DNA of 42,201 bases from Planctomycetota bacterium (GTDB lineage: Bacteria; Planctomycetota; Phycisphaerae; SM23-33; FEN-1343), in NCBI GenBank assembly GCA_012514895.1, contig JAAYZK010000140.1:1-42201 (forward strand), given 5' to 3'. Shown piece after piece: positions 10,733-39,241 of the stretch. How positions within the stretch are numbered: position 1 is the first letter of the stretch; each line of letters begins with the position of its first letter. The notes beneath the pieces are model-generated. The model ran no database searches, was not told where the DNA came from, and saw nothing but the letters and a program-made list of their open reading frames with translations. The translations under genes and the position numbers were made by a program.

Positions 10733-10762
10733 CGGTTGTCATGGGGGTACGGTCCTTCTCGG

Positions 10763-13909: not shown

Positions 13910-14050
13910 GGTAGGCTCCTTGGTGCGGGTCGGAATGTCTTGGCGGCGCAGAACATCATGCCGTCAACGGTCTGTCGGGGCAAGGGCTTGGGGTCCGCAA
14001 CGACGAATAATAGCAATGGACGACTCAGCGTCTTTTGTGGGAGAACGGCG

Positions 14051-17273: not shown

Positions 17274-17359
17274 GGGGCGATCCTCGCTGAACGGACAGGT
17301 CATGAGCATACGTGGAGTTCCATTATTGCAGCTTCCGCCGCCGCATGCAAGCTACCCGC

Positions 17360-19120: not shown

Positions 19121-19139
19121 GGTCGGGTCCCTAACGTCG

Positions 19140-22100
19140 TCAGGATGTCAACCGCACCGTCTTGATCTCGAATGGGCGGAACGCCAAGGCGACGGCTCCG
19201 TCCTTCACGGCCAGCGGCCGGCCGTTCCGCTCGAGCATGTCGGTCCGGGCGGCCCGGACCACGGGCAGATCGGTCGAGAGCATGCACGATGCGGCGGTGC
19301 CGTGCGCCTCGTAAAGGCGGACGATGACGTCCCCGCTGCCGTCCGCGGCGAGCTTGACGGCCTCGACCACGACCCCCGGGGCGTCGGCGGCCAGCACGCT
19401 GCGCGTCCCGCCGTCGCCGCGACGGGTGCGGACGGGGATGTTCAGGTCGTAGGCCTCCCGCACGAGCGAGCTGTCCGCCAGTCCGCCCGTCCAGGCCAGC
19501 AGGGCATACGTGAACGTGTACCGCCCGGCGTCGCCCCGCCCGTCGGGGCCGAGCGGGGCCCGCATGAGCGTCAGGTTGATCGTGGTGCCGGCGACGTTCA
19601 CCCCGTACTTGCTGTCGTTGAGGACCGCCAGGCCCCGCCCCGGCTCGGCCAGGGCCGTCCCCTTGTGGTTGCACACCTCGAACTGGTCGCGGTCGGCCTG
19701 CCGGTTCGTGTGGTTGGGACGGCGGAGGTGGCCGAACTGGATCTCGTGGATCGCCTCGGTGGCGCGGACGTCGCCGCTGAAGCCCACCTTCAGCAGCCTG
19801 TGGCGCTCGTGCCAGTCCAGCGTGGTGACGAAATCGAGCCGTGCGCTGCCGGCGCGGAGCGTGACGTCCTGGGTCAGCGTCGAGTTGTTGATCCGCCGCG
19901 TGATCCGCAGCACGCCCACCAGCGGGCCCTGCGTAACGACCTCGAACGTCGCCGGCGCCTCGCCGAGATCGACGGGGGTCTGGTAGACCATCGAGTCGAT
20001 GTCCCACGCGTCGAACTTGGAGGGCACGTCCTTGTACATCTTCATCACATTGCCCCGCCCCGCCGCGAGCACCTCGCGGCCGTCGGCCAGGTCGATGAGG
20101 CTGACCATCTCGCCCAGGGCGTTGAACGTTGCGCGGATGCGGTCGTTGGCCAGGGACGATCCGGTGACCGTCACGCCGCCGGCGGTCGCGGCGGCGGGCG
20201 TGTCGGTCAGCTTCAGCGTGGTCCAGCCGCACGACGGGACCGTCACCGCCGCCAGCGTCGCGCCGCCGACCGTCTGCGTCACGACCGGCTCGCCGGCCGC
20301 GTCGGCGGCGCCGGCGGCGCCGGCGGGCAGCGCCACCAGGGCCGTGCGGGACCAGTTGAGCGAGTTGAAGACCGTCAGGGCGTCGGCGGCCTCGTTCACC
20401 AGCGCCCCCATGGCCGCCTCGGCGATGCCGTCGGCGGTCGCGAGGGCCTCGGCGTACGAGGCCTCGGCCTGCTCGTAGACCCGCTGGATGGACGAGCCGG
20501 GCAGGATGTCGTGGAACTGGTTCAGCAGCACCGCCCGCCACGTGTCTTCCAGCGTTTCGGCCGGCCACGGGTAGCCGTCGGCGAACGACGCCCAAAGCTC
20601 TGCCTCTCGCAAGGCTTGTTCACAGCGGCGGTTGTACCACTTGGTCCGCGCCTGGCTGGTCAGCGTGCCGCGATGGCAGGTGAAGTACAGTTCGCCGACC
20701 CAGCGGTTGGCGTCGTGCTCGCCGCGGGCGACGAGGTCTTCGAAGAAGGCGACGGGGCCGGCCAGTTCGAGTTTCGGCACACCCTCGCAGTCGCCCAGGC
20801 GTGCGATGTATTCCAGGTGTTCGCGGGTCGGGCCGCCGCCGCCGTCGCCCCAGCCGAAGGGGTACATCCGCGTGGACATGCCGTCCTTCTGAACGCGCTG
20901 GGTCCACCGCTTGATGACCGCACCGGGGTCGGCCGGGGCGTTGTAGTCGTTGTGCAGGTGCGTGATGACGGTGCTGCCGTCGATGCCCTCCCACAGGAAG
21001 TTGTGGTAGGGGAAGGTGTCGCCGCCGTGGTAGTTCCAGAAGATCTTCTGGGTGGAGAAGTACTTGATTCCGCAGCCGGCCATGATCTGCGGCAGCGCTG
21101 CCGAGTAGCCGAACACGTCGGGCAGCCAGAGCATCTCGCTGTCGACGCCGAACTCGTCGGCGAAGAACCGCTTGCCGGCGAGGAACTGGCGGATGAGGGC
21201 CTCGCCGCCGGAGATGTTCGTGTCGGCCTCGACCCACATCCCGCCCTCGGCGATGATGTGCCCGTCGGCGACGGCCCGCCTGACCCGCTCGTAGAACGCC
21301 GGGTAGCGGTTCTTGATCATCCAGAACAGGTGCGGCTGGCTGTGCAGGAACCGGTAGCCGGGGTACTGCTCGGCCAGGGCCAGTTGGCCGGCCAGCGTGC
21401 GGACCGCTTTGCGCTCGGTCTCGGCCAGCGGCCACAGCCAGGCGACGTCGAGGTGGGCGTGGCCGAAGCAGAAGAACTCCGGCGACGTCGAGCCGTTCCG
21501 GCACGCCAGCACGCCGGCCAGTTCCCCGCGGGCGGCCTGGAAGGCGGCCTGCATCGCGTCGAAGGGCTGCTCGAAATCCACCGTCCGCGTGAACTGCTTG
21601 AGGGCGTCGTCGATCCGCGACACGCGGAGCGAATCGGCATCGAGGGTGTCGCGTAGATTCACCAGGGTGCCCACGTCCATCAGCAGTTGCCAGGCCGTCT
21701 CGTTCCAGACGCCGAAGGTGCACTCGCCGACGGTCTGCTGCGCCGCCCGCGGCTGCGGCACCGACGGCCGGTCCGGCGGGATCGGCCCGACGTGGCAGGG
21801 CGTCGGGCCGTGCCAGGCGTAGGCTTCCATGAGAATGTCGAACCTCTCGCCGCCGGCGGCCCGCGCCGTCAGCGTGATGTGCGGCCAGGTCCCGCGGTAC
21901 GGCTCGACCAGCTCGCCGTTGACCCAGACGAGAGCCTCCTTGTCGGTCACCGGCAGGTGCGCGACGATCCGCTCGCCGGCGGCCTCCGACGGCACCGTCA
22001 CGCATCCGCGGAACCAGCCGTACTCGTACGCGCCGCCCCAGGCGGTCCCCGCCGGCGCCGCGGCGAACGGCCCGGCCGCCCCGGCCGCCGCGTCCAGGTG

Positions 22101-22214
22101 GTCGCGCGTGAACCACCCCTCCAGCGCCACCGCCCCCAGGGGCCGGTAGAGATGCCGCTTCAGCTCGTTCCGCCAGGCATCCAGACGATCCCGCCATTCC
22201 GCGTTCAGCGTCAT
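19140..22214 (-). CDS. GH38 alpha-mannosidase
   Basis: A 1024-residue glycoside hydrolase family 38 enzyme, of normal length for bacterial members. An N-terminal beta domain (about 1-240) leads to the catalytic barrel with H254 and D256 in GHAHLDVAW, the nucleophile D366 in LWLPDVFGYS, and H568 in NQFHDILPG. These four residues match the family's zinc site. C-terminal beta-sandwich domains follow (about 620-1024). It hydrolyses alpha-mannosidic bonds with retention of configuration. There is no signal peptide, so it is predicted to be cytoplasmic, unlike the exported sulfatase and lyase encoded next. AAGGAG sits 7 bases before ATG 22214. It is divergent from the GntR gene across a 145-base spacer holding the palindromic operator, so it may share that control. 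Confidence 0.93.
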   Translation of the reverse strand: MTLNAEWRDRLDAWRNELKRHLYRPLGAVALEGWFTRDHLDAAAGAAGPFAAAPAGTAWGGAYEYGWFRGCVTVPSEAAGERIVAHLPVTDKEALVWVNGELVEPYRGTWPHITLTARAAGGERFDILMEAYAWHGPTPCHVGPIPPDRPSVPQPRAAQQTVGECTFGVWNETAWQLLMDVGTLVNLRDTLDADSLRVSRIDDALKQFTRTVDFEQPFDAMQAAFQAARGELAGVLACRNGSTSPEFFCFGHAHLDVAWLWPLAETERKAVRTLAGQLALAEQYPGYRFLHSQPHLFWMIKNRYPAFYERVRRAVADGHIIAEGGMWVEADTNISGGEALIRQFLAGKRFFADEFGVDSEMLWLPDVFGYSAALPQIMAGCGIKYFSTQKIFWNYHGGDTFPYHNFLWEGIDGSTVITHLHNDYNAPADPGAVIKRWTQRVQKDGMSTRMYPFGWGDGGGGPTREHLEYIARLGDCEGVPKLELAGPVAFFEDLVARGEHDANRWVGELYFTCHRGTLTSQARTKWYNRRCEQALREAELWASFADGYPWPAETLEDTWRAVLLNQFHDILPGSSIQRVYEQAEASYAEALATADGIAEAAMGALVNEAADALTVFNSLNWSRTALVALPAGAAGAADAAGEPVVTQTVGGATLAAVTVPSCGWTTLKLTDTPAAATAGGVTVTGSSLANDRIRATFNALGEMVSLIDLADGREVLAAGRGNVMKMYKDVPSKFDAWDIDSMVYQTPVDLGEAPATFEVVTQGPLVGVLRITRRINNSTLTQDVTLRAGSARLDFVTTLDWHERHRLLKVGFSGDVRATEAIHEIQFGHLRRPNHTNRQADRDQFEVCNHKGTALAEPGRGLAVLNDSKYGVNVAGTTINLTLMRAPLGPDGRGDAGRYTFTYALLAWTGGLADSSLVREAYDLNIPVRTRRGDGGTRSVLAADAPGVVVEAVKLAADGSGDVIVRLYEAHGTAASCMLSTDLPVVRAARTDMLERNGRPLAVKDGAVALAFRPFEIKTVRLTS

Positions 22215-22304: not shown

Positions 22305-22343
22305 TTGACAGGCCGAGTTAGTGCACTAAGCTTAGTGCACCAA
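22305..22343 (+). promoter_or_regulatory. Promoter and palindromic operator of the GntR operon
   Basis: TTGACA at 22305-22310 is a perfect -35 box. Two repeats follow, TTAGTGCACTAA (22318-22329) and TTAGTGCACCAA (22332-22343). Together they contain the perfect 20-base palindrome GTGCACTAAGCTTAGTGCAC (22321-22340). The palindrome covers the expected -10 position (TAAGCT, 22327-22332), so a bound dimer would block transcription. The site lies 17 bases before the regulator's start codon and within the spacer shared with the divergent GH38 gene. Autoregulation by the GntR protein is inferred from position; HutC-type regulators bind this kind of site. Confidence 0.75.
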
Positions 22344-22359: not shown

Positions 22360-23097
22360 ATGGGCACCGTGCCGGCCATTCCGAAGTACGACCGGATCCG
22401 CCGCGACATCGTCGCGCGGATCACCAGCGGGCAACTGCCCCCCGGGGCGATGGCGCCGTCGGAAAACGAGATCATCCGCCAGTACGGGGTGAGTTGCACC
22501 ACCGCCCGCCGGGCCCTGGCCGAGATGGCCGCCGCCGGCTGGGTCGAGCGGGTCAAGGGTCGCGGCACGATCGTCCGCCGCCGCCAGGTGGAGCGGTCGG
22601 TCGACCGGATCCTCGGCTTCACCCGCAACATGATCGAGGCCGGCCGCACGCCCCGAACGGAAGTGCTGAGCGTCAGGCGCCTGCGGGGCGGCCTCGGCGC
22701 CCGTCCGCTGCGGGGGCCGGTCTGGGCGATCCGGCGGCTGCGGCTGGCCGACGACGAACCGATGATGATCGAGACGCGCCACGTCTCGGCCGAACTGTGC
22801 CCCGGCATCGACGCCTGCGACCTGACCGGCTCGCTGTACGACCTCTACGCCGGGCGGTACGGCCTGGAGCTGGTCCGCGTGGACCAGGAACTCAGCACCC
22901 TCCTGCTGGACCGCGAGGCGGCCGCGACCTTCGGCGTCGCCGGGCCGCTGCCGGCGTTCCGCATCAGCGGCGTGACCTGCTGCGACGGCGGACGCGTGCT
23001 GGAGACGGAGGAATCGATCTACCGCGGCGATCTGTACCGCTTCACCGTCCGGGCGACGCGCGACGGCGCCGGCGAGAGGACCTCACCATGGATGTGA
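22360..23097 (+). CDS. GntR-family (HutC/UTRA) transcriptional regulator
   Basis: A 245-residue repressor-type regulator. The N-terminal winged helix-turn-helix (about 5-75) has the GntR signature SGQLPPGAMAPSENEI and the wing GRGTIV. The UTRA effector-binding domain (about 95-240) ends in FRISGVTCCDGGRVLETEES. UTRA domains of sugar operons usually sense a phosphorylated sugar. ATG 22360 follows the operator directly. The gene overlaps the E1alpha gene by 10 bases, so it is the first cistron of a nine-gene operon and would report the level of an intermediate of that pathway. The effector cannot be identified from sequence. Confidence 0.92.
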   Translation: MGTVPAIPKYDRIRRDIVARITSGQLPPGAMAPSENEIIRQYGVSCTTARRALAEMAAAGWVERVKGRGTIVRRRQVERSVDRILGFTRNMIEAGRTPRTEVLSVRRLRGGLGARPLRGPVWAIRRLRLADDEPMMIETRHVSAELCPGIDACDLTGSLYDLYAGRYGLELVRVDQELSTLLLDREAAATFGVAGPLPAFRISGVTCCDGGRVLETEESIYRGDLYRFTVRATRDGAGERTSPWM

Positions 23098-24056
23098 CCC
23101 GGTTCGACAAGTCGTTGCTGGCCGATCTGTATCGCACGCTGCTGACGATCCGCGTGTTCGAGACCCAGTGCATCAAGCTCTACCGCACCGGCGAGATCAT
23201 CGGCTACTTCCACCCCTACCTCGGCGAAGAGGCCGTCGCCACGGGGGTCTGTGCCGCGTTGGCCGACGGCGACACCTTCACCAGCACGCATCGCGGCCAC
23301 GGGCACTGCATCGCCGGCGGGGCCGACATCCGGCGGATGCTGGCCGAGCTGCTGGGCAAGGCGATCGGCTACTGCGGCGGGCGGGGCGGGTCGATGCACA
23401 TCGCCGACCTGTCCACCGGGAACCTCGGGGCCAACGGCATCGTCGGGGCGGGCATCCCCATCGGCGTCGGGGCGGCCCTGGGAGCGTCCATCCGCGGCGA
23501 GAAGGCCGTCACGGCGGTGTTCTTCTCCGACGGGGCCTCCAACCAGGGCACGTTCGCCGAGGCGATGAACCTCGCGGCGATCTGGAACCTGCCGGTGATC
23601 TTCGTCCTGGAGAACAACCATTACGCGGTCTCGACCCCCGTCGAAGCCGTCAGCCGCACGAAGGACCTCGCCGAGCGGGCCAGGGGGTACGGGGTGGAAG
23701 CCTTCACCGTCGACGGCAACCACGTGCTGGAGGTCTACCAGCGGGCCTGCGAGGCGGCGGCGACCTGCCGCGACGGCCGCGGGCCGGTGCTGATGGAGTG
23801 CAAGACGTACCGCCACCAGGGCCATCACGTCAACGATCCGGGCCTGTACATGCCCGCCGACCGGCTGGCGTACTACAGGAGCATCGACCCGGTCGACCGC
23901 GGGCGGTCCTTCCTGCTGGCCCACCCCGACAGCACCGAGGCCGACGCCGAGACGATCGAGCGCGAGGTCGAGCAGGCGGTCGCCGACGCGATCGCGTTCG
24001 CGGTCGCCGCGGCCAAGCCCTCGGTGATGCAGTTTCTGCAGGAGGTGGTCGAATGA
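23088..24056 (+). CDS. 2-oxoacid dehydrogenase E1 component, alpha subunit
   Basis: A 322-residue thiamine-diphosphate enzyme subunit of the pyruvate/acetoin/branched-chain dehydrogenase type. It has the family hallmarks STHRGHGHCIAGG (66-78), GGSMHIAD (100-107) and the ThDP-Mg motif SDGASNQG (147-154) with the later N-N pair (176-177). With the beta subunit it decarboxylates a 2-oxoacid, or cleaves acetoin, and passes the acyl group to lipoyl-E2. GAGAGGA lies 7 bases before ATG 23088, which overlaps the regulator's end by 10 bases. The next start overlaps its stop (ATGA), so E1alpha and E1beta are translationally coupled. Similarity is greatest to the acetoin/pyruvate class, but specificity between substrates cannot be settled by eye. 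Confidence 0.9.
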   Translation: MDVTRFDKSLLADLYRTLLTIRVFETQCIKLYRTGEIIGYFHPYLGEEAVATGVCAALADGDTFTSTHRGHGHCIAGGADIRRMLAELLGKAIGYCGGRGGSMHIADLSTGNLGANGIVGAGIPIGVGAALGASIRGEKAVTAVFFSDGASNQGTFAEAMNLAAIWNLPVIFVLENNHYAVSTPVEAVSRTKDLAERARGYGVEAFTVDGNHVLEVYQRACEAAATCRDGRGPVLMECKTYRHQGHHVNDPGLYMPADRLAYYRSIDPVDRGRSFLLAHPDSTEADAETIEREVEQAVADAIAFAVAAAKPSVMQFLQEVVE

Positions 24057-25036
24057 GCGCCGACGGCCGCGTCATCATGTACCGCCAGGCGCTCAACGAG
24101 GCGCTCCGCGAGCAACTGGCGGCCGACCCGACGGTGTTCTGTCTGGGCGTAGGCATCGCCGAGCGGGGCGGATCGTACAAGGTCACCGAGGGGCTGCTGG
24201 AGGCGTTCGGCCCCCGGCGGATCATCGACACGCCCATCAGCGAGGCCAGCTTCACCGGCGCCGCGGTCGGGGCCGCGATCACGGGGATGCGGCCGGTGGT
24301 GGAGATCCTGTTCGTGGATTTCTCGATGCTGGTGCTTGACCAGATCATCAACCAGGCCGCCAAGCTGAAGTTCATGACCGGCGACCAGGGCCGCGTCCCG
24401 ATGGTCCTCCGCACGCAGGGCGGGGCGGGCAACGGCCTGGCGGCGCAGCACTCCCAGTCGCTGGAGGCGATCTTCTACCACGTGCCGGGGCTGAAGCTGG
24501 CGATCCCCTCGACGCCCTACGACGCCAAGGGGCTGCTGGCCGCCGCGATCCGCTGCGACGATCCGGTGATCTTCATGGAGCACAAGCTGCTGTACCAGAC
24601 CTCCGGTCCGGTGCCGCAGGAACCTTACACGATCCCCCTGGGCGTCGGCGACGTCAAGCGGGCCGGGTCGGACGTGACGGTGATCGCATGGTCGGCCATG
24701 GTCGGCCGGGCGCTGGCGGCGGCCGAGCAGTTGGCGGCCGAGGGCATCGACGTCGAGGTGATCGACCCGCGGACGCTGGTGCCGCTGGACGTCGAGCTGA
24801 TCCTCGAGTCGGTCCGCAGGACGAACCGCGCGGTGATCGTCCAGGAGGCGGTCCGCCGCGGAGGCGTGGCGTCCGACATCGCGTCGATCATCCAGGAGCA
24901 GGCGTTCGACCACCTCGACGCGCCGGTAACGATCATCGCGGGCAGGAACACCGCGATCCCGTTCGCGGTGGATCTCGAACGGGCATGCGTGCCGCAGGTG
25001 GAAGACATCACGGCGGGCATACGCGCCTTGCTTTGA
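24053..25036 (+). CDS. 2-oxoacid dehydrogenase E1 component, beta subunit
   Basis: A 327-residue partner of the preceding subunit. It has the transketolase-like pyrimidine-binding domain (about 5-185; RIIDTPISEASFTGAAVGAA and AAQHSQSLEA) and the C-terminal transketolase domain (about 200-325; ADVTVIAWSAMV-type strand, EVIDPRTLVPLD). It shares the active site with the alpha chain at the heterotetramer interface. It starts at ATG 24053 inside the E1alpha stop and is followed by an aldolase gene 33 bases later. The E2 gene comes only after that aldolase, an unusual interruption of an otherwise standard order. Confidence 0.9.
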   Translation: MSADGRVIMYRQALNEALREQLAADPTVFCLGVGIAERGGSYKVTEGLLEAFGPRRIIDTPISEASFTGAAVGAAITGMRPVVEILFVDFSMLVLDQIINQAAKLKFMTGDQGRVPMVLRTQGGAGNGLAAQHSQSLEAIFYHVPGLKLAIPSTPYDAKGLLAAAIRCDDPVIFMEHKLLYQTSGPVPQEPYTIPLGVGDVKRAGSDVTVIAWSAMVGRALAAAEQLAAEGIDVEVIDPRTLVPLDVELILESVRRTNRAVIVQEAVRRGGVASDIASIIQEQAFDHLDAPVTIIAGRNTAIPFAVDLERACVPQVEDITAGIRALL

Positions 25037-25069
25037 ACGGCGCCCTGGAGGCACGAAGGGAGACGGGTC

Positions 25070-25921
25070 ATGGGACTGGTGAACATGACGGCGATGCTGC
25101 AGGCGGCCCGCAAGGGCGGGTACGCGGTCGGGGCGTTCAACATCGTCGACTACAACTCGACGCGGGCGGCGGTGCGGGCGGCCGAGGACCTGAAGGCCCC
25201 GATCATCGTCCAGGTGTCGGTCAAGACCGTCCAGTTCTGGGGCGCCGACGCCCTGGCCGGCTGGATCCGCCAGGTGGCCGGCCCCTCGCCGGTGCCCGTG
25301 GCGTACCACCTGGACCACTGCCGCGACGTCGACGTCGTCCGCCAGTGCATCGACGCCGGCTGGACGTCGGTAATGATCGATGCGTCGCACCTGCCCTACG
25401 AGGAGAACCTCGCGCTGACCCGTCAGGTCTGCGCGATGGCGGCCGAGGCGGGCGTGAGCGTCGAGGCGGAGATGGGCGCGATCGTCGGCGTCGAGGATGA
25501 CATCTTCGTCTCCCAGCGCGACGCCCACCTGGCCGACATCGACCAGGCCGAGGCGTTCTGCCGCGAGGTCGACCTGGCGGTCTTCGCCCCGGCCATCGGC
25601 ACGGCGCACGGCATCTACAAGGGGACGCCCGAAATCGCCTACGACCGCCTGGACGCCATCGCCCGCCGCACGGGGCTGCCCATCGCCCTGCACGGCGGAA
25701 CAGGGCTGGACGATGCGACGTTCAAACGCTGCATCGAGCTGGGCTGTGCCAAGATCAACATCTCAACGGCCCTGAAATACGCCTTCATCGACGGATTCGT
25801 GGATTATCACCTCGCCCGGAAGAAGTACGAGCCGCTCAAGCCCCTCCAGGCGCAGTACGAGGCCGTCTACGCCCTGGTGGCCGGGAACATCCGCCTGTTC
25901 GGCTCGGCGGGGAAGGCCTGA
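25070..25921 (+). CDS. Class II (zinc) ketose-bisphosphate aldolase
   Basis: A 283-residue class II aldolase. The catalytic Asp and zinc ligands are all present: D82 and H83 in YHLDHCRD, E132/E134 in VEAEMG, H180 in GTAHGIYKG and H208 in ALHGGTG. The phosphate-binding loop INISTALK follows. Such enzymes split a ketose-1,6-bisphosphate, or a related phosphorylated ketose, into DHAP and an aldehyde. The length and loop pattern resemble the FbaA/GatY/KbaY/IolJ group and do not point to one substrate. GAAGGGAG lies upstream of ATG 25070. It sits between E1beta and E2, only 8 bases before the latter, so its product is probably fed into the same pathway as the dehydrogenase. Confidence 0.9.
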   Translation: MGLVNMTAMLQAARKGGYAVGAFNIVDYNSTRAAVRAAEDLKAPIIVQVSVKTVQFWGADALAGWIRQVAGPSPVPVAYHLDHCRDVDVVRQCIDAGWTSVMIDASHLPYEENLALTRQVCAMAAEAGVSVEAEMGAIVGVEDDIFVSQRDAHLADIDQAEAFCREVDLAVFAPAIGTAHGIYKGTPEIAYDRLDAIARRTGLPIALHGGTGLDDATFKRCIELGCAKINISTALKYAFIDGFVDYHLARKKYEPLKPLQAQYEAVYALVAGNIRLFGSAGKA

Positions 25922-25929
25922 GGACGACC

Positions 25930-27075
25930 ATGACACCCGTGAAGATGCCCCAGGTGGGCCAGGACATCGCCGCCGCGACGATCATCGAATGGCTCAAGGC
26001 CGAGGGCGACCCCGTCTCCGCCGGCGAGGTCGTCGCTGTGGTCGAGAGCGAGAAAGCCTCCTTCGAGGTCGAAGCCGACACCGACGGCGTCCTGCTCAAG
26101 CGCCTCTACGCCGCCGGCGAGGAAGGCAAGGTCCTCGAACCGATCGCGTGGATCGGCCGGCCGGGCGAGCGCATCCCCGAAGCGGCCGAGGCGCCTCCCG
26201 CCCCGACGCCGGCACCCGCACCGGTACCCGCCGCGCCCGTGGCGGCGGCCGCCGGGGGACGGCCGGCGGTTTCCCCCGTCGCGCGGCGGCTGGCGGCCGA
26301 GCACGGCGTGAACCTGTCGACCCTGGCCGGCACCGGCCCCGGCGGGCGGATCGTCAAAGCCGACGTCCTGGCGGCGGCCGCGCCGGCGCCCCCGCCCGTC
26401 GATCCGCTGCCGGCGGCGGATACGGAGGTGCCTTTCGACCGCATGCGGGCCACGATCGCACGACGGCTGACGCGGGCGTCGCAGACGGTCCCCCACTTCT
26501 CCATCGCCATCGACGTCGACATGACCGAGGCCAACCGCTGGCGCAAATCGCCGGCGGCGGGGACAAAGGTCACCGTCACCGACCTGATCATCCACGCCAC
26601 GGCCCGGGCCCTGCGGGACTACGCCCGCCTCAACGCGATCGTCGACGAGACGAAGCTGACCCTCAGGAGCCGCGTCAACATCGGCGTGGCCACCGCGGTC
26701 GGCAGCGGGCTGCTCGTGCCGGTGATCGCCGATGCGCACACCCTGTCGCTGGCCGGGATCGCCGCCGCCGGTCGTGCCGCCGTCGAGGCCGCGCGCCGGG
26801 GCGTGCTGACCTCGACGGCCGCCGGGACGTTCACGATCAGCTCGCTGGGCATGTACGGCGTGACGCGCTTCACCCCCATCATCAACGCCCCCCAGTGCGC
26901 CATCCTCGCCGTCGCCGCCATCACGCCGCGGGTCGTGCCCGTCGGCGAGGCGATCGGCGTCCGCCAGATGATGACCCTCACGCTCGCCTGCGACCACCGG
27001 GCCATCGACGGGCCCTACGCGGCGGCGTTCCTCAACCGCCTCAAGACGGCCCTGGAGAAGGACTACAGGCCATGA
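25930..27075 (+). CDS. 2-oxoacid dehydrogenase E2 (lipoyl acyltransferase)
   Basis: A 381-residue dihydrolipoamide acyltransferase. The single lipoyl domain (about 1-78) carries K42 in ESEKASFEVEA. A Pro/Ala linker (about 85-110) and the E1/E3-binding domain (about 112-150; VSPVARRLAAEHGVNL, GTGPGGRI) follow. The catalytic domain (about 165-381) ends with H356 and D360 in DHRAIDG. It accepts the acyl group from E1 and transfers it to CoA. The next gene starts within its stop codon (ATGA). No E3 lipoamide dehydrogenase is encoded in the operon, so this complex must borrow one from elsewhere. Confidence 0.93.
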   Translation: MTPVKMPQVGQDIAAATIIEWLKAEGDPVSAGEVVAVVESEKASFEVEADTDGVLLKRLYAAGEEGKVLEPIAWIGRPGERIPEAAEAPPAPTPAPAPVPAAPVAAAAGGRPAVSPVARRLAAEHGVNLSTLAGTGPGGRIVKADVLAAAAPAPPPVDPLPAADTEVPFDRMRATIARRLTRASQTVPHFSIAIDVDMTEANRWRKSPAAGTKVTVTDLIIHATARALRDYARLNAIVDETKLTLRSRVNIGVATAVGSGLLVPVIADAHTLSLAGIAAAGRAAVEAARRGVLTSTAAGTFTISSLGMYGVTRFTPIINAPQCAILAVAAITPRVVPVGEAIGVRQMMTLTLACDHRAIDGPYAAAFLNRLKTALEKDYRP

Positions 27076-27782
27076 CCCTGGAAGCACTGATCTTCGACTG
27101 CGACGGCGTGCTGGTCGACACCGAGAAGGACGGCCACCGCGTGGCGTTCAACCAGGCCTTCGCCGCGATGGGCCTCGACGTCCAGTGGGACGTAGAGCTC
27201 TACGGCGAGCTGCTGGCCGTCGCCGGCGGCAAGGAGCGGATGGCGCACTACTTCACCCGGGCCGGCTGGCCCGACGCCGCCGCCGACCGCGACGCGTTCA
27301 TCAGGAAGCTGCACACCCTCAAGACCGATCGGTTCATGAGCATCATCGCCTCGGGGGGCCTTCCGCTGCGGCCGGGCGTCGCGCGGCTCATCGACGAGGC
27401 GATCGCCGCGGGCATCACGCTGGCGGTGTGCTCGACGAGCAACGAGCGGGCGGTCCACCTCGTGGTCGACACGCTGCTGGGGCCGCGGCGCAAGGCGGCC
27501 TTCGGCGGGATCTTCGCCGGGGACATGGTCCCGCGCAAGAAGCCCGACCCGGCCGTCTATCAGCTCGCCTGCCGGACGCTGGGGCTCAGCCCCGCCGCGT
27601 GCGTCGTCGTCGAGGACAGCGCCAACGGCCTCCGCGCCGCCAAGGCCGCGGGAATGCCCTGCCTGGTCACCGTCAGCACCTACACCGCCGCCGAGGACTT
27701 TTCGGCCGCCGACCGGGTCGTTGCCCACCTGGACGACGGACCGATCACGCTGGCCGACCTCCGCGCCCTCGTGAAAGCCTGA
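27072..27782 (+). CDS. HAD phosphatase, CbbY-like
   Basis: A 236-residue haloacid-dehalogenase-type phosphatase. Motif I is D9-x-D11 (FDCDGVLVDTE), motif II is the CSTSN serine, motif III is the Lys in RKKPDP and motif IV is VVEDSANG. Among HAD proteins the cap region (HRVAFNQAFAAMGLDVQWD, then GGKERMAHYF) closely resembles CbbY, the xylulose-1,5-bisphosphate phosphatase that protects Rubisco. No Calvin-cycle gene is nearby. In this sugar operon a housekeeping role on a misphosphorylated or bisphosphorylated ketose is the simplest reading; beta-phosphoglucomutase is the main alternative. It starts inside the E2 stop codon. The transaldolase-like gene follows after 20 bases. Confidence 0.85.
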   Translation: MTLEALIFDCDGVLVDTEKDGHRVAFNQAFAAMGLDVQWDVELYGELLAVAGGKERMAHYFTRAGWPDAAADRDAFIRKLHTLKTDRFMSIIASGGLPLRPGVARLIDEAIAAGITLAVCSTSNERAVHLVVDTLLGPRRKAAFGGIFAGDMVPRKKPDPAVYQLACRTLGLSPAACVVVEDSANGLRAAKAAGMPCLVTVSTYTAAEDFSAADRVVAHLDDGPITLADLRALVKA

Positions 27783-27802
27783 ATGCCAAGGAGCCCTGCG
27801 CG

Positions 27803-28450
27803 ATGAAACTCTTCCTGGACACCGCCGACGTGAAGGCCGTCCGCCGGGCCCACGCGACCGGCCTGCTGGACGGCGTGACGACCAACCCGGCCAAGATCGC
27901 CGAGGCCGGCCGCCCGTTCCTGGAGGTCGTGCGCGAGATCGCCTCGATCACCCCCGGCCCGGTCAGCGCCGAGGCGATGAGCGCGACGGCGGGCGCCCTG
28001 GTCGACGAGGCGGTGCACCTGGCGTCGCTGGCGCCGAACATCGCCGTCAAGCTGCCGATGACCGTCGAGGGGCTCACCGCGTGCGGCGTGCTGGAGCGGG
28101 AGAAGAACGTCAGGACCAACGTCACGATGGTCTTCTCGGCGCCGCAGGCGTTTCTGGCGATGAAGGCCGGGGCGACGTTCGTGAGCATCGTCCTGAGCCG
28201 CCTGGACGCCGTCGGCAACGACAGCGAGATCCTCGTCAACGACGCGGCCGCCATCAAGCAGAACTACGGCTTCGCGTCGGAGATCATCGCCGGCAGCGTC
28301 AAGACGACCAACCAGGTGATGGCTTGCCTGCGTGCGGGGATCGACATCGCCACCGTGCCCGAGTCGGTCTTCTTCCAGCTCTTCCAGCATCCGCTGACCG
28401 ACGTCGGCCTCGCGCAGTTCGCCGAGGTGTGGAAGGGCGTGAAGGCATGA
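27803..28450 (+). CDS. Fructose-6-phosphate aldolase / transaldolase-type protein
   Basis: A 215-residue small TIM-barrel protein of the FSA/TalC group, with the typical opening MKLFLDTADVKAV and GVTTNPAKI. The Schiff-base lysine is K83 in AVKLPMT, as in fructose-6-phosphate aldolase, and NVTMVFSAPQAF and SVFFQLF are also conserved. Members either cleave fructose-6-phosphate-like ketoses to dihydroxyacetone and an aldehyde-phosphate or act as transaldolases; the choice depends on single active-site residues not resolved here. Relatives also act on sulfo-sugars. AAGGAG (27788-27793) precedes ATG 27803 by 9 bases. The kinase gene begins in its stop codon. Confidence 0.9.
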   Translation: MKLFLDTADVKAVRRAHATGLLDGVTTNPAKIAEAGRPFLEVVREIASITPGPVSAEAMSATAGALVDEAVHLASLAPNIAVKLPMTVEGLTACGVLEREKNVRTNVTMVFSAPQAFLAMKAGATFVSIVLSRLDAVGNDSEILVNDAAAIKQNYGFASEIIAGSVKTTNQVMACLRAGIDIATVPESVFFQLFQHPLTDVGLAQFAEVWKGVKA

Positions 28451-29400
28451 GCGGGCCGCGCAGCATCCTGGCGTTCGGCGAACTGCTGTGGGACCTGCTG
28501 CCCGGCGGCGCCGCCACGCTCGGCGGGGCCCCGTTCAACTTCGCCTACCGCGTGAAGGAACAGGGCGACCGCGCCCGTATCGTCAGCCGCCTGGGGCGCG
28601 ACGACTACGGCCGCCGCGCCGCCGAGCGCCTGGCGGCGCTGGGGATGAGCGATGCGTGCGTGCAGTGGGACGACCGGCGCCCCACCGGCACCGTGATCGT
28701 CAGCCTCGACGGCGCCGGCCAGCCCGACTACGTCATCGTCCCCGACGTCGCCTACGATCGCGTCGAGGCGACCGACGCGGTCCTCACCGAGGCCGCCCGC
28801 GCCGACTGCATCTGTTTCGGCACGCTCATCCAGCGCACCGCCGGCGCCCGGGCGGCGCTGCGGGCGATTCTCGACGCCGCCCCCGCGACGGCGGTGCGGC
28901 TGCTGGACATCAACCTGCGCAAGGACTGCCACAGTCCCGAGTCGATCGCCGCGTCGCTGGAAGAGGCGACGATCCTCAAGCTCAACGAGACGGAGGCCGC
29001 AGCCCTGGCTGGCCTGTTCGACCTGCCCGACCGGTCGATCCCGGCGTTCTGCGCCGAGATGATCGGCCGGTGGGACCTGACGCACTGCGTCGTGACGCTC
29101 GGGGCCTGCGGCGCGTTCGCCGACGGCGCCGAGACGGGGCCCGTGTACGAGCCGGGCTACCGCGTTGCGATGGTCGACCCCCTCGGTTCGGGCGACGCGT
29201 TCGTCGCGGCCTTCATCTGCCGCCTGCTGCGGGGCGAGCCGCTGGGCACGTGCCTCCATCACGGCAACGTGCTCGGCGCCATCGTCGCCACGCAGGCCGG
29301 CGCCACCGAACCGATCGATTCGGAGGTCCGCGAAGCCTTCACCGCATCACACCACGAACGGCTCGTCGAGCCGTCTTTGAAAACGTTCATGAATGGATAG
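28447..29400 (+). CDS. PfkB-family carbohydrate kinase
   Basis: A 317-residue ribokinase-like sugar kinase with the usual fructokinase opening (ILAFGELLWDLLPGG, then LGGAPFNFAYR) and the catalytic segment MVDPLGSGDAFVAAF, where the Asp of GSGD is the base. It phosphorylates the primary hydroxyl of a sugar with ATP in the cytoplasm. Fructokinase, 5-dehydro-2-deoxygluconokinase and sulfofructose kinase belong to the same family and cannot be distinguished by eye; the N-terminal region looks most like fructokinases. It starts in the transaldolase stop (ATGA) and is followed 10 bases later by the isomerase, suggesting an isomerise-then-phosphorylate order. Confidence 0.9.
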   Translation: MSGPRSILAFGELLWDLLPGGAATLGGAPFNFAYRVKEQGDRARIVSRLGRDDYGRRAAERLAALGMSDACVQWDDRRPTGTVIVSLDGAGQPDYVIVPDVAYDRVEATDAVLTEAARADCICFGTLIQRTAGARAALRAILDAAPATAVRLLDINLRKDCHSPESIAASLEEATILKLNETEAAALAGLFDLPDRSIPAFCAEMIGRWDLTHCVVTLGACGAFADGAETGPVYEPGYRVAMVDPLGSGDAFVAAFICRLLRGEPLGTCLHHGNVLGAIVATQAGATEPIDSEVREAFTASHHERLVEPSLKTFMNG

Positions 29401-29410
29401 AGGCTCAGCC

Positions 29411-30415
29411 ATGAAACCGATACGGATCAGCATGGGGATCTGGGGCAACACGAACCTGGTCGATCGCTTCAACACCAAGGGCTTCGGCGAGGAGGTCGCG
29501 GTGCTCGACCGCATCCGCCAGATCGGCCAGATCGACGGCGTGGACGGCATCGAACTGCACCTGCCGACCGAGATCAACGACACGAACGCCGATGACGTCG
29601 CCCGCGTGCTCGACGATCACAACCTCCAGATCGTCCAACTCTGCGGCCACACGTGGACCGAGAAGAAGTACAAGCACGGCGCCCTGGCCGACTCCAACCC
29701 CGCCGTCCGCCAGGGGGCCGTCGACCGCGTCCGGGCGGCCCTGGACATGGGCGCGCGGTTCAACGTGCCCATCAGCGTTCTGTGGCCCGCCACGGACGGC
29801 AACGACTTCCCCCTCCAGGCCGACTATCTCGCCCTCTACGAGCGCTACGTCCAGAGCTGCCGGCGGATCCTCGACCACGTCCACGCCAACGGCTACGCCA
29901 CCAAGGTGTGCATCGAGCCCAAACCCTTCGAGCCCCGCACGCACATCATGATGGGCAACACCGCCCAGGCATTGTGCATCGTCAACGAGATCGACGACCC
30001 CAGCTTCGGCATCAACCTCGACGTCGGCCACGCCATGATCGCCTCGGAGAACGTGGAGGATCAGCTCTCGCTGATCTGCCGGTACGGCAAGCTCTACCAC
30101 ACGCACTTCAACGACAACGACCAGCAGTGCGACGCCGACCTGCCGCCCGGGACGATCAACTTCCTGCGGCTCGTGCAGATCCTCTACGTCCTCGACCAGG
30201 TCGGCTACGACGGCTGGTTCGGCCTGGACCTGTTCCCCTACCGCGACGATCCCCGCAAATTCATCGAGATCTCCCGCGACAACCTCCACAAGGCCGCCGC
30301 CGTCGTCGATCTCATGAACGAAAACGGCGCCCGCGACCTCCGCGCCGCCGGGACGGGCGGGCCGGAGATGGCGATTCTGATGCGCGACTGCATGGGCAAG
30401 GTGCTGGCGGGATAG
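29411..30415 (+). CDS. Xylose-isomerase-like TIM-barrel sugar isomerase
   Basis: A 334-residue TIM barrel of the xylose isomerase / AP-endonuclease-2 superfamily. The active-site strand IEPKPFEP (168-175; E169 and K171) is almost that of true xylose isomerases. The further candidate metal ligands are D204 and H207 in NLDVGHA, H230/H232 and D235 in HTHFND, and D273 in GLDLFPYR. It probably interconverts an aldose and a ketose with divalent metal. It is shorter than standard XylA (about 390-440) and lacks the dimer arm, so a related sugar is more likely than xylose itself. ATG 29411 has AGAGG ahead of it; an earlier ATG at 29393 overlaps the kinase gene. It is the last gene of the operon and converges with selB 8 bases on. 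Confidence 0.83.
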   Translation: MKPIRISMGIWGNTNLVDRFNTKGFGEEVAVLDRIRQIGQIDGVDGIELHLPTEINDTNADDVARVLDDHNLQIVQLCGHTWTEKKYKHGALADSNPAVRQGAVDRVRAALDMGARFNVPISVLWPATDGNDFPLQADYLALYERYVQSCRRILDHVHANGYATKVCIEPKPFEPRTHIMMGNTAQALCIVNEIDDPSFGINLDVGHAMIASENVEDQLSLICRYGKLYHTHFNDNDQQCDADLPPGTINFLRLVQILYVLDQVGYDGWFGLDLFPYRDDPRKFIEISRDNLHKAAAVVDLMNENGARDLRAAGTGGPEMAILMRDCMGKVLAG

Positions 30416-30423: not shown

Positions 30424-32424
30424 TCATCCGCCGTTCAACATCGCCCTGGCCTCCGCCCCCGGGCGGCGGATCGATCCGTTGCGCGTGGTGAAGCGGACGG
30501 TATCGAACCAGTCCAGCAGCGGGACGGCGTACTTGCGGCTGACGCCGAGGGCGTCGCGGAACTGCATGGTGGTGAAGCTGCCGGACTGGCGGAAGAGGTC
30601 CAGGGCGACCTGCCGGGCACGCTGGACGGCGTCGGCGTGAAGGGTCACCTTGGCGTCCAGGGGCACGACGGCGCCCTGGTCGGCCAGGACGCGAACGATC
30701 GACGCCAGGCGCTGCGGGGCGATGCCCAGTTCGCCGGCCAGGTCCTCCGGCAGCGGGGCCTCGAAGGCCGCGTCGCGCAGCCGCCCCACGATCCGATCGG
30801 CCAGCGCCCGGTCGGCCTCGGCCAGGTGCACGCCGCGGCCCGGCAGGCCCAGCAGCGGGCCGCGCCCTTCGATCCGCCGCGCCGCCGCGAGGCGCTCGAC
30901 GGTCAGGGCCCCCACCCGGTCCGACACGTCCAGCGCCGCCGCCAGGGCCGCCGGGGCCATCCCCGCCCGCATCGGCTCGGCGGCGTGAAAGGCGTCCAGC
31001 GCCTCGACGGCCCGGTCTCCCAGGGCGTCCAGCGCCTCGGCGTGAATGACCAGCCCGCCGGGTTCGGCGATCGCGACGCCGCCGGCAACCAGCGGCGGCA
31101 GCACCGCGTCGACCTGCGCGTCGGTCCAGTGAGCCCGTGCCGCCAGCTCGGCCCGCGTCAGCCCGGCATCGGCTTCGCGGAGGATCGTCTCGCACCAGCG
31201 ACGCGGATCGTCCAGGGCCTCGCGGCGGGCCTCCAGACGGCCGAGCACCCAGGGGCGTCCGCGGCGAAGGCGGGTGTCGCTCACATCGAGGATCCGCCCG
31301 CCGCCCAGGGTCGTCACGCGGCCGCCGGCCAGGCCGGCCACGCTGCCCCGCAGGACAAACCGTTCGCCCGGCACCGCCGCCAGGGGCTCGCGGAGGCGAA
31401 GCTGCACCAGGGCCGTGGCGCCCGGGGCGATCGGCTCGCCGGCCAGCATCGCGACGTTCGCCATCGCCTCGGCGGTGCCCAGGTGGATGTGGCCCTCGAC
31501 GTAGTCTTCCAGCGGCCGCGGCACGGACGGCAGGACCGTCAGCGCCGCCTCCACCATCGTCGCCGGATGACAGGCCGGGTCGGCCGTCAGGACCGCGCCG
31601 CGCGACAGCGCCGCCGGATCGGCGTCGGCGAGGTTCATCGCCACGCACTCCCCGGCCCGGCCGACCGATGCGTCCCGCCCGTACACCTGCAGCTTCCGCA
31701 CGCGGACGGACTGGCCCGACGGCTGCACGATCAGCCGATCGCCCTCGGCGACCGACCCCCACGCAGGGATCCCCGAGACAACCGTTCCAAACCCATGGAT
31801 GGAAAAACTCCGTTCGACCCACAGGCGGAACAGCCCGTCCAGGCGCCGGGGCGCACAGGCGTTCACGGCTCCGTCGAGCGCCTCGAAGAACGCTGAAAAA
31901 CCTTCGCCGGTGATGGTGGAGATCGGGCAGATCGGCGCATCGGCCAGGAAGGTGCCGGTCACGAAGGCGCGAACCTCCTCGACGGCGGCCTGGCGCAGCT
32001 CGTCGTCGACCAGGTCGACCTTCGTCAGGGCAATGACGCCGCGGCGGACGCCCATGAGCGTGAGGATGTCCAGGTGCTCGCGGGTCTGGGGCATGACCCC
32101 GTCATCGGCGGCGACGACGAAGATCACCACGTCGACGCCCTGGGCGCCGGCGACCATGTTGCGGATGAACCCCACGTGGCCGGGCACGTCGACGATGCCG
32201 ACAATCCGCTCGTCGGCCATCGCGCAGGGAGCGAACCCCAGCTCGATCGTCATCCCGCGGGCCTTCTCCTCGGCCAACGTGTCGGTGTCGCAGCCGGTCA
32301 GCAGCTTCACCAGGGCCGTCTTGCCGTGATCGACGTGTCCGGCGGTGCCGAGCATCACGTTCTTGCGCGTCATTTCCCGCCCGGCGGCGTCCGTTACGCG
32401 ATTGCCCGTCGCCTCGTCGCTCAT
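30424..32424 (-). CDS. selB: Selenocysteine-specific elongation factor SelB
   Basis: A 666-residue GTPase that delivers Sec-tRNA to UGA codons marked by a SECIS hairpin. The EF-Tu-like part has G1 GHVDHGKT (29-36), G3 DVPGH (79-83) and G4 TKVD (134-137), with two beta-barrel domains after it. The C-terminal 260 residues form the winged-helix repeats that bind SECIS RNA, ending in the typical last module (MQFRDALGVSRKYAVPLLDWFD). The start is ATG 32424, which overlaps the selA stop (ATGA); an in-frame extension of 59 residues upstream is Arg/Pro-rich shadow sequence and is rejected. It is about the usual length. selA and selB form a two-gene unit. Confidence 0.95.
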   Translation of the reverse strand: MSDEATGNRVTDAAGREMTRKNVMLGTAGHVDHGKTALVKLLTGCDTDTLAEEKARGMTIELGFAPCAMADERIVGIVDVPGHVGFIRNMVAGAQGVDVVIFVVAADDGVMPQTREHLDILTLMGVRRGVIALTKVDLVDDELRQAAVEEVRAFVTGTFLADAPICPISTITGEGFSAFFEALDGAVNACAPRRLDGLFRLWVERSFSIHGFGTVVSGIPAWGSVAEGDRLIVQPSGQSVRVRKLQVYGRDASVGRAGECVAMNLADADPAALSRGAVLTADPACHPATMVEAALTVLPSVPRPLEDYVEGHIHLGTAEAMANVAMLAGEPIAPGATALVQLRLREPLAAVPGERFVLRGSVAGLAGGRVTTLGGGRILDVSDTRLRRGRPWVLGRLEARREALDDPRRWCETILREADAGLTRAELAARAHWTDAQVDAVLPPLVAGGVAIAEPGGLVIHAEALDALGDRAVEALDAFHAAEPMRAGMAPAALAAALDVSDRVGALTVERLAAARRIEGRGPLLGLPGRGVHLAEADRALADRIVGRLRDAAFEAPLPEDLAGELGIAPQRLASIVRVLADQGAVVPLDAKVTLHADAVQRARQVALDLFRQSGSFTTMQFRDALGVSRKYAVPLLDWFDTVRFTTRNGSIRRPGAEARAMLNGG

Positions 32425-33830
32425 GCCGTCGCCCGTCCCACAGCCTGCGCGATCAGGGGGATGTCGCCCTCCTCGATCGTCCGCGCGTCCAGGATCACCC
32501 GCTCGCGGTCGATGCGCGTGAAGACGCACGCGTCGTCCAGCCGCAGGCGGCGGGCCAGATCGTCGGCGGTCCGGTCGGCCGCCGCCAGGGCGGCAACCCA
32601 CGTCGGCAGCGCCTCGTGGGGCAGCGACCCGCTGCCGAGGTAGCCGACGTCCCTGCGGACCTCGGCCGCGACGGCCGGGGCAGCCGCGGCGATCGCCTCG
32701 GCCAGCGCCTGCGCACGCGCCTGCAGGGCCGCGTCGCCCGTCGCCAGCATGCGGTACAGCGGGTGCTCGCGCTTGAGCAGGTCCAGGTCGCGGAAAAGCG
32801 CCAGCGTCCGCTCCAGGGCCATCAGGCAGGTCTTGTCCGGCCGCAGGGCCCGGGCCAGGGGGTGCCTGCGGATGTGTTCGATGAGCTCCTTGCGGCCCAC
32901 GATGATCCCGCCCTGACTGGCGCCGATGAGTTTGTCGGCGCTGAACAGGACGATGTCGGCCCCGGCCGCCAGCGACTCGGGCACCGTTGGCTCGTGGGGC
33001 AGCCCGAAGGCGGCCAGGTCCACCAGGGCGCCGGCGCCGAGGTCGTCGACGACGGGGATCCGGGGATGGCCGATCTTCACCAGGTCGGCGACGGTGACTT
33101 CCTTGTGGAAGCCCACGACGCGGAAGTTGCTGGGATGGGCCCGGAAGAGCAGGCCGGTGTTCTCGGTGACGGCGTCGGCGTAGTCGCGCGGGTGCGTGCG
33201 GTTGGTCGTGCCGACCTCGACCATGCGGGCGCCGCTCATGGCCATCACGTCAGGCAGGCGGAACGCCCCGCCGATCTCGATGAGCTGCCCGCGCGAGACG
33301 ATCACCTCCTTGCCCGGCGCCAGGGCCGCCAGGACCAGCAGCGTCGCGCCGGCGTTGTTGTTGACGACGGTCGCCGCCTCGGCGCCGGTCAGTTCGGTGA
33401 GGATCGGCTCGACGCGGCCGTCGCGGTCGCTGCGGGTGCCGCTGTCGCGGTCGATGGCGAGCGTGACGTAGCCCTTGAGCCCGTTGATCATGTCGTCGAC
33501 CACCCGCCCCGGCCACACCGCCCGCCCCAGGCCGGTGTGCAGGATGACCCCCGTCGCGTTGATCGCCCGCCGGATCCGCGGCGCGACCCGCTCGGCCAGC
33601 AGAGCGCCGGCCAGTTCCAGGACGTACCCCTCGCCGACATGGGCCGTCCCGCACCGGCCCCGGTCGTCGTTCTGGACGGCCTGGCGGAGCTGATCGACCG
33701 CATCCCGCAAGCACGCCGTCACCAGCGGGCGGGGATGCTGGGCGAGCCACTCGGTGGCGGTCGCACTTTGGAGCAGCCCCCCCACCGACGGGAGGGCCCG
33801 AAGCAGGTCGTGTTTCGCTGTCTGGGACAT
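32421..33830 (-). CDS. selA: L-seryl-tRNA(Sec) selenium transferase
   Basis: A 469-residue PLP enzyme that converts Ser-tRNA(Sec) to Sec-tRNA(Sec) using selenophosphate. The opening (LRALPSVGGLLQS) is typical. NATGVILHTGLGRA marks the core, and the PLP lysine is K300 in FSADKLIGASQGG. ATG 33830 has GGGAG 7 bases upstream. The earlier ATG at 33860 lies inside the predicted -10 box and is rejected. It overlaps selB by the ATGA junction. Neither selD (selenophosphate synthase) nor selC (tRNA-Sec) is in the window, and none of the proteins read here shows an in-frame UGA that would be decoded as selenocysteine, so the client selenoproteins lie elsewhere. Confidence 0.95.
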   Translation of the reverse strand: MSQTAKHDLLRALPSVGGLLQSATATEWLAQHPRPLVTACLRDAVDQLRQAVQNDDRGRCGTAHVGEGYVLELAGALLAERVAPRIRRAINATGVILHTGLGRAVWPGRVVDDMINGLKGYVTLAIDRDSGTRSDRDGRVEPILTELTGAEAATVVNNNAGATLLVLAALAPGKEVIVSRGQLIEIGGAFRLPDVMAMSGARMVEVGTTNRTHPRDYADAVTENTGLLFRAHPSNFRVVGFHKEVTVADLVKIGHPRIPVVDDLGAGALVDLAAFGLPHEPTVPESLAAGADIVLFSADKLIGASQGGIIVGRKELIEHIRRHPLARALRPDKTCLMALERTLALFRDLDLLKREHPLYRMLATGDAALQARAQALAEAIAAAAPAVAAEVRRDVGYLGSGSLPHEALPTWVAALAAADRTADDLARRLRLDDACVFTRIDRERVILDARTIEEGDIPLIAQAVGRATA

Positions 33831-33855
33831 CCGCGTCTCCCTTATCGAACGCCGG

Positions 33856-33864
33856 ATCATACCA
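33856..33864 (-). promoter_or_regulatory. Extended -10 promoter of selA-selB
   Basis: On the minus strand TGGTATGAT (33864 to 33856) is an extended -10 with five of six consensus bases in TATGAT. The -35 position is poor, as is common for extended -10 promoters. Transcription would begin near 33849, giving a leader of about 19 bases that holds GGGAG. Confidence 0.55.
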
Positions 33865-37324: not shown

Positions 37325-37347
37325 GGTCTACTCCCGCGGGGCTCCGG

Positions 37348-37782: not shown

Positions 37783-37823
37783 CACCGGCCCCTTTCACTC
37801 CGTTGCTGGTTATCGGTTCACCG

Positions 37824-39155: not shown

Positions 39156-39172
39156 CGGTTCGCTCTCCTTCC

Positions 39173-39204
39173 CCCCCGCCTGCACAACCCGCGGCAGACG
39201 GGGG
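39173..39204 (-). other. Hairpin before the proximal paaK ribosome site
   Basis: On the minus-strand transcript CCCCGUCUGC pairs with GCAGGCGGGG, with one G-U pair, around a loop of about ten bases. The G-run of the 3' arm runs into GGAAGGAG, the ribosome site of the ligase. It could separate expression of the oxidoreductase from the ligases; no T-run is present. Confidence 0.4.
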
Positions 39205-39241
39205 ATGCTGGGACACTCGGGTCCGACTCAGTTGACAGGGG

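Follow-up and report, generated by a model that had tools for sequence, protein, structure and literature searches.

Why would a bacterium embed what looks like a 2-oxoacid dehydrogenase in an operon of sugar-phosphate enzymes? The question arises from a 42,201-nt contig of a 4.9-Mb Planctomycetota genome (hereafter the window, in whose coordinates positions are given), where nine genes on the plus strand at 22360-30415 encode a GntR/UTRA regulator, the E1 alpha, E1 beta and E2 components of a thiamine pyrophosphate (TPP)- and lipoate-dependent complex, a class II aldolase of fructose-bisphosphate aldolase (FBA) type, a HAD phosphatase, a small transaldolase/fructose-6-phosphate aldolase (FSA)-family protein, a PfkB kinase and a TIM-barrel isomerase, TIM1. 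A sequence-only reading had proposed a single, tightly packed operon for a sugar route ending in a 2-oxoacid. Open reading frame and profile searches confirmed all nine genes in place and on that strand. The packing is indeed tight, although the four ATGA overlaps then counted are three (E1 alpha/E1 beta, E2/HAD and FSA/PfkB) plus a 10-nt overlap between GntR and E1 alpha, with the other intergenic gaps spanning 8-33 bp. What the complex acts on is a separate matter. Here we argue that the operon is catabolic and that its E1/E2 proteins form a putative lipoate-dependent ketose-phosphate ketolase, a reading whose substrate and product are deduced from the genes and which we regard as about evenly poised between right and wrong.

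An E1/E2 subtype distinct from pyruvate dehydrogenase

In domain architecture and catalytic framework the operon E1 and E2 resemble pyruvate dehydrogenase (PDH), whose components are their best named models; E1 beta even scores above the PRK09212 cut-off. Unlike PDH, however, the operon E1 belongs to a clade of its own. In a tree with PDH and acetoin dehydrogenase sequences, operon E1 alpha proteins and those encoded on Shinella plasmids group together (support 100/100) on a long stem, separate from both the PDH group (96/99) and the acetoin dehydrogenase group (97/92). The same separation is evident in whole-genome searches, where operon E1s are retrieved at E-values of about 1e-166 to 1e-182 and other E1s of the same genomes at 1e-88 or worse. 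A second, ordinary E1 is present in most host genomes.

The differences extend to the substrate loops. E1 alpha departs from PDH and acetoin E1s at Y40, R190, H243, H247 and N249, of which Y40 occupies the position of Phe61 in human PDH, and H247 that of Ser264. Within E1 beta, R38 and S41 are invariant and K43 nearly invariant in 10 relatives, and these residues differ in the PDH and acetoin E1s compared, a set that left out human PDH E1 beta; R38 stands where PDH E1 beta has an aromatic residue. By sequence alignment, this loop, with the basic residues it has gained, corresponds to the transketolase loop after the SAD motif, which participates in binding the substrate phosphate. We infer that such a residue pattern would suit a sugar phosphate better than pyruvate.

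The E2 component is more variable, as seen in relatives recovered by the genome searches described below (loci are denoted L, genomes G). The window protein has the standard series of lipoyl, E3-binding and acyltransferase domains. That of L027 comprises a lipoyl domain only, while at L028:6471-7730 lipoyl and E3-binding domains are fused to a CbbY-type HAD, with no acyltransferase, and the Shinella E2 ends in an alpha/beta-hydrolase of AcoC type. Because the acyltransferase is absent or replaced in some relatives, acyl transfer to CoA is not the invariant chemistry of the family, and these variants argue against a simple PDH.

A precedent for such chemistry exists in acetoin dehydrogenase (AcoABC/L), which couples TPP-dependent cleavage of a hydroxyketone to oxidation onto lipoate. 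Like it, the operon has an alpha2beta2-type E1 with the STHRGHGHCIA motif and a lipoyl E2, which in Shinella is of AcoC type. The operon E1, however, falls outside the acetoin dehydrogenase clade, differs in its substrate loops and is accompanied by sugar-phosphate enzymes; no acoX, acoR (the sigma-54 activator) or butanediol dehydrogenase gene is among its neighbors.

A CbbY-type phosphatase in genomes without Rubisco

The most telling clue is the HAD phosphatase, for which the sequence-only label "CbbY-like" was well chosen. Its sequence identity is 61% to Arabidopsis CbbYA (4UAV) and 47% to the CbbY of Rhodobacter—two proven phosphatases of xylulose-1,5-bisphosphate (XuBP) that are themselves 43% identical to each other. 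Across the operon type, identity to CbbYA is 55-62%, and the active-site stretch of CbbY near the N terminus is retained. On this evidence the HAD protein is a CbbY orthologue and a predicted XuBP phosphatase. CbbYA and its Rhodobacter counterpart turn XuBP into xylulose 5-phosphate (Xu5P) with high specificity, and XuBP has been made in vitro by enzymatic aldol addition of dihydroxyacetone phosphate (DHAP) to glycolaldehyde phosphate (PMC10212915).

Unlike the established CbbY proteins, this one sits in a catabolic operon of hosts that lack Rubisco: the RuBisCO large subunit was found in 0 of 15 host genomes, the window genome included, by a search that was positive in controls. XuBP here can therefore not be a Rubisco by-product, and the neighboring class II aldolase, combining DHAP with glycolaldehyde phosphate, would be the obvious remaining source. 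This aldolase, whose closest solved structure is the class II FBA 7ncc, would run in the synthetic direction, as the presence of a CbbY-type phosphatase implies.

A gene set conserved across phyla under its own regulator

The recurrence of these genes elsewhere was examined with TIM1 as query against 84,980 species genomes. Thirteen loci emerged, most at 61-76% identity, from Planctomycetota, Omnitrophota, Sumerlaeota, Glassbacteria, KSB1 and others. Nearly all loci of sufficient length hold the rest of the operon in a comparable order, with identities mostly between 42 and 73%; the co-occurrence search that the sequence-only reading had called for thus dispels its caveat that the set might never be found together elsewhere. 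Since orthologues recur in similar order in other phyla, the arrangement is far beyond chance. Further members came from the phyla of L031 (L073-L075; 4/82 genomes) and L029 (L090 and L091), and genome G392 carries E1 alpha-E1 beta-FBA-E2 and E2-HAD-FSA-PfkB-TIM1 on two separate contigs, in agreement with the complete order of the window. The operon is rare and patchy, with 2/40 genomes positive in the phylum of L024 and just two clear members (E below 1e-170) among 392 genomes in that of L029. Close TIM1 relatives in a sample of the window's own phylum were set aside as paralogues of roughly 30% identity lacking the operon. The gene set is spread over several phyla, mostly of uncultured lineages, and its core is also found on plasmids of cultured Shinella.

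What varies is as informative as what is kept. E1 alpha, E1 beta, PfkB and TIM1 are near-constant. The FBA and HAD genes occur without FSA in L028, and FSA occurs without FBA and HAD in L029 and L030; both sets are found together in the window, L023, L027 and L031. Even the most diverged locus, L091, retains exactly E1 alpha-E1 beta-FBA-HAD as far as its contig extends. The FBA-HAD pair and FSA therefore look like partly interchangeable recycling modules. Two aldol-cleaving enzymes had earlier suggested a substrate cut twice, an idea that fits poorly with this interchangeability and with the synthetic direction implied for the aldolase.

Regulation appears equally self-contained. A tandem palindromic operator is predicted upstream of gntR, beside a -35-like hexamer, TTGACA, at 22305-22310; 0.04 matches to it would be expected in the window by chance, and its two copies are the sole matches (at most one mismatch) in the entire genome. 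GntR orthologues of 48-51% identity head the operon in L027, L031, L073 and L075, and a related box, TTAGTGCGTTAA or near variants of it, lies upstream of the orthologues in L027, L075 and L073. Because the operator is unique in the genome and a related box precedes gntR orthologues, the nine genes are a single operon served by a local regulator of its own, and the site of that regulator has been kept in different phyla. The window genome is a draft of 504 contigs with an estimated contamination of 8%; the conclusion is unaffected, as the same module recurs in other, independent genomes and in complete plasmids of Shinella.

Plasmid contexts suggest ketose phosphates as possible substrates

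The Shinella plasmids present the core in other company. The same E1 (59-62%), aldolase and HAD (63%) are clustered with a transaldolase, E2, E3 (lpdA), a phosphoglycolate-phosphatase-type HAD, two triose-phosphate isomerase (TPI) genes, lipA, a GlpD-like dehydrogenase, an FGGY kinase and an ABC transporter. A TIM-barrel protein of the cluster matches Brucella EryC (4K3Z, 1.9e-134). EryC is D-erythrulose-1-phosphate 3-epimerase, from which the route continues to D-erythrulose 4-phosphate, converted by DerI to erythrose 4-phosphate (PMC10733421). Like the rhizobial and Brucella erythritol (ery) pathway, the Shinella version has an EryC orthologue, a GlpD-like protein, an FGGY kinase and TPI-like isomerases; unlike it, the locus has E1/E2, the aldolase and CbbY, and no DerI/RpiB gene in the stretches read. 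From the operon of the window, ery genes are absent. The absence of DerI/RpiB from the Shinella stretches suggests that E1 consumes D-erythrulose 4-phosphate, yielding glycoloyl-lipoate and glycolaldehyde phosphate. The latter, it is suggested, is the very partner needed by the aldolase-CbbY pair.

A second illustration comes from Cryobacterium plasmid pA10BH1 (L097), where FBA, a CbbY-type HAD, DhaL, DhaK, an aquaporin, TPI, RpiB, a split transketolase and GntR form one cluster. Here the split transketolase stands in place of E1 alpha/beta beside the FBA-CbbY pair, and no Rubisco gene lies in the L097 stretch, making this a second context for CbbY without a Calvin cycle. Likewise, a split transketolase (L034) and E1 alpha/beta (L038 and L056) alternate beside a homologous oxidoreductase. 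Such swaps argue that E1 and transketolase take substrates of one kind.

L038 and L056, from Sinorhizobium and Shinella plasmids, hold another uncharacterised set of E1 alpha, E1 beta, E2 and lpdA with its own motif, GHSKSD, and with lipA in L038. This set adjoins an SAF/homoserine-dehydrogenase-like oxidoreductase.

A candidate lipoate-dependent ketolase

How might these enzymes work together? Isomerisation by TIM1 of an aldose to the ketose would come first, the aldose being probably glucose or mannose. The protein retains the metal and hydride-shift motifs of xylose isomerase (EPKPxEPR, VGH and HxHxxDNDQ), with full-length XylA models scoring below cut-off, and its structure model (pLDDT 77.6) finds 3KTC, glucose isomerase and L-rhamnose isomerase as best folds. 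PfkB, with closest solved structure 2QHP (deposited as a fructokinase; 2e-43), would phosphorylate the ketose, for instance to fructose 6-phosphate; entry of an aldohexose as fructose 6-phosphate is our most economical guess. E1 alpha/beta with TPP would then cleave the ketose phosphate between C2 and C3, as acetoin dehydrogenase does with acetoin and transketolase with ketoses, leaving an aldose phosphate two carbons shorter—erythrose 4-phosphate in the case of fructose 6-phosphate. Oxidation would place the C2 part on the lipoyl group of E2 as a glycoloyl moiety, for transfer to CoA or, in complexes without the acyltransferase, for release as glycolate.

Erythrose 4-phosphate would be rearranged or recycled by the transaldolase-type protein or by the aldolase/CbbY pair. 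The former has transaldolases (1VPX and 3R8R) as its closest solved relatives and keeps the Lys and Glu, with the aromatic residue of the active-site loop changed to V and SIRH to SVKT. As for the latter, glycolaldehyde phosphate, as arising from erythrulose 4-phosphate, may be rescued by aldol addition of DHAP, the resulting XuBP dephosphorylated by the HAD protein, and Xu5P returned to E1 to give glyceraldehyde 3-phosphate and a further glycoloyl group.

In essence, the scheme resembles the cycle of phosphoketolase-based non-oxidative glycolysis, with an oxidative E1/E2 replacing phosphoketolase. As in non-oxidative glycolysis, which is itself synthetic, and in the bifid shunt, the same rearranging enzymes (transaldolase, aldolase and a bisphosphatase) surround a TPP enzyme that cleaves ketoses; unlike these, the operon has lipoate-dependent E1/E2 and no phosphoketolase. 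Indeed, no phosphoketolase (XFP_N) occurs in the window genome, and clear ones are confined to G398 and G401, outside the operon. The broader proposal—a natural lipoate-dependent sugar-oxidation cycle, with a new E1/E2 class of "ketose-phosphate dehydrogenase" producing glycoloyl-CoA, XuBP as a true catabolic intermediate and CbbY as a catabolic enzyme—is one we advance tentatively, as somewhat short of an even chance. The open-access literature searched yielded no description of such a ketolase or pathway, and the route matches none known in those sources.

Weighing the alternatives

A ketolase accounts better than PDH for the distinct E1, for a CbbY protein in Rubisco-free hosts, for recycling modules that can stand in for one another and for the gene neighborhoods in Shinella and Cryobacterium, but several observations count against it. 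Most relatives of the window E2 keep a normal acyltransferase; L024 and L025 have neither a transaldolase-type nor an aldolase gene nearby; the match between the E1 beta and transketolase loops is one of sequence alone; and tetritol catabolism in Shinella is read from gene identity only. Pyruvate is compatible with the E1 sequence, and the ketolase role is a deduction from genes. A dedicated PDH on a glycolysis-like side route is the foremost, if unlikely, rival: TIM1 and PfkB would supply fructose 1- or 6-phosphate, FBA or FSA would cleave it to trioses—a task for which the two are mutually replaceable—E1/E2, with its complete acyltransferase and PDH-like profile matches, would oxidise the resulting pyruvate, and HAD would remove excess sugar phosphate. 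The separate E1 subtype with its altered substrate loop speaks against this, as does the presence of another E1 in most hosts (Shinella presumably has a chromosomal PDH, as established for its group). A CbbY-class phosphatase beside the aldolase would form a futile cycle, and the operon showed no gene of lower glycolysis. The E1 subtype and the second E1 of most hosts likewise disfavor the route ending in a 2-oxoacid that the sequence-only reading had envisaged.

Other substrates and chemistries fare less well. Quite unlikely, in our view, is an E1 substrate (a 2-oxoacid or alpha-hydroxyketone) that stems from an unusual sugar, whether deoxy, keto or branched, of polysaccharides or glycosides, with both aldolases cleaving intermediates of that sugar. 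Polysaccharide-degradation genes upstream and the 2-hydroxy-3-keto-glucal hydratase and Gfo/Idh genes of relatives are in keeping with such a sugar, but neither a dehydratase nor an enzyme acting on sugar acids is encoded in the operon, glucose is the end product of the hydratase pathway, and the CbbY-type phosphatase and the plasmid contexts would go unexplained. Less probable again is a redox-neutral ketolase, in which E1 dehydrates the C2 adduct as phosphoketolase does and passes acetyl rather than glycoloyl to lipoyl/CoA, giving a CoA version of non-oxidative glycolysis. The gene logic would be the same, and loci with no acyltransferase or an unusual E2 would be accommodated; the retained E3-binding domain and the lpdA and lipA of Shinella point instead to a complex that is oxidative and depends on E3. 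A modified myo-inositol or sulfo-sugar pathway is scarcely credible. By profile search PfkB bears a weak likeness to IolC and the aldolase falls in the IolJ/FBA class, but gene content contradicts this option, as the sequence-only reading had recognized: IolG, IolB and IolD are absent from the operon and those of its orthologues, no sulfolactaldehyde enzyme or sulfo-sugar partner gene occurs in the operon or, for such partners, in relatives examined, and the FSA-type protein is nearer ordinary transaldolases (5e-52) than sulfofructose transaldolase (2e-35).

Accessory genes of relatives and neighbors in the window

In L028 the protein after TIM1 matches 2-hydroxy-3-keto-glucal hydratase (8RO4, 1.6e-140), and, by reading of the sequence, likely orthologues follow TIM1 in L022, L026, L029, L031 and L032, with a Gfo/Idh oxidoreductase gene directly 3' of the hydratase-like gene in several relatives. 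The route of this hydratase yields glucose. A 3-keto-glucoside route was rejected as part of the window system, as the window genome has only a 30% match to the hydratase. Between PfkB and TIM1, L028 (8698-9939) and L031 (8407-9978) share a predicted secreted protein, 61% identical, with Big_7 as its only domain, no catalytic Pfam domain and a poor structure model (pLDDT 36.8). Every host has GlcD-type oxidases scoring under the family cut-off, and these have no discriminating value.

Within the window, the features of the operon and its regulatory region are collected in Table 1; for TIM1, a start at 29411 agrees with orthologues better than 29393. The divergent GH38 alpha-mannosidase is a possible feeder gene, although it is not conserved with the operon. 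It belongs to a polysaccharide-degradation locus on the minus strand (9364-22214), divergent from the operon, with an SGSH-type sulfatase, a heparinase II/III-like lyase, a DUF4838/GH67N protein and an SIS-domain protein. Directly downstream of the operon (30424-33860, minus strand), ORF translations read as selB- and selA-like, and the organism probably makes selenocysteine. Further on (35996-41424, minus strand) lie a ferredoxin oxidoreductase with POR, POR_N and TPP domains, of indolepyruvate type by layout, and an adjoining AMP-binding ligase with an AMP-binding_C_2 domain that is phenylacetate-CoA-ligase-like. An Rfam search of the window gave no match.

Table 1. Genes and predicted regulatory site of the operon region, in window coordinates.
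Feature	Position	Strand	Profile matches and remarks
GH38 alpha-mannosidase	19140-22214	-	PF01074/PF07748; divergent, same regulatory intergenic region as operon
Tandem palindromic GntR operator (predicted)	22318-22343		TTAGTGCACTAA-gc-TTAGTGCACCAA (whole, TTAGTGCACTAAgcTTAGTGCACCAA); upstream of gntR
GntR/UTRA transcriptional regulator	22360-23097	+	PF00392, PF07702
E1 alpha, TPP-dependent, operon-specific subtype	23088-24056	+	PF00676; motifs GYFHPY and GHHVNDPG
E1 beta, operon-specific subtype	24053-25036	+	PF02779/PF02780; (E/Q)RGGSYKVT loop
Class II ketose-bisphosphate aldolase (DHAP-dependent, FBA type)	25070-25921	+	PF01116 (1e-90); above TIGR00167 cut-off
E2: lipoyl, E3-binding and acyltransferase domains	25930-27075	+	PF00364, PF02817, PF00198; DHRxxDG in acyltransferase
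HAD phosphatase, CbbY type, predicted XuBP phosphatase	27072-27782	+	
Small transaldolase/FSA-family protein, atypical active site	27803-28450	+	TIGR00875 (1.3e-65), below cut-off
PfkB sugar kinase	28447-29400	+	PF00294
TIM1, xylose/glucose-isomerase-like TIM-barrel isomerase	29411 (or 29393)-30415	+	PF01261

Implications

The motifs GHHVNDPG (alpha) and RGGSYKVT (beta) offer simple marks by which genome annotation can cease to label E1s of this type as PDH. Because the core is also carried on plasmids of cultured Shinella, genetic testing is possible now. Should the ketolase reading prove true, these proteins would represent a third TPP-dependent way to cut ketose phosphates, beside transketolase and phosphoketolase, and one coupled to lipoate and NAD. 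It would also mean that CbbY can act beyond the Calvin cycle, within a sugar route spread over many uncultured phyla.

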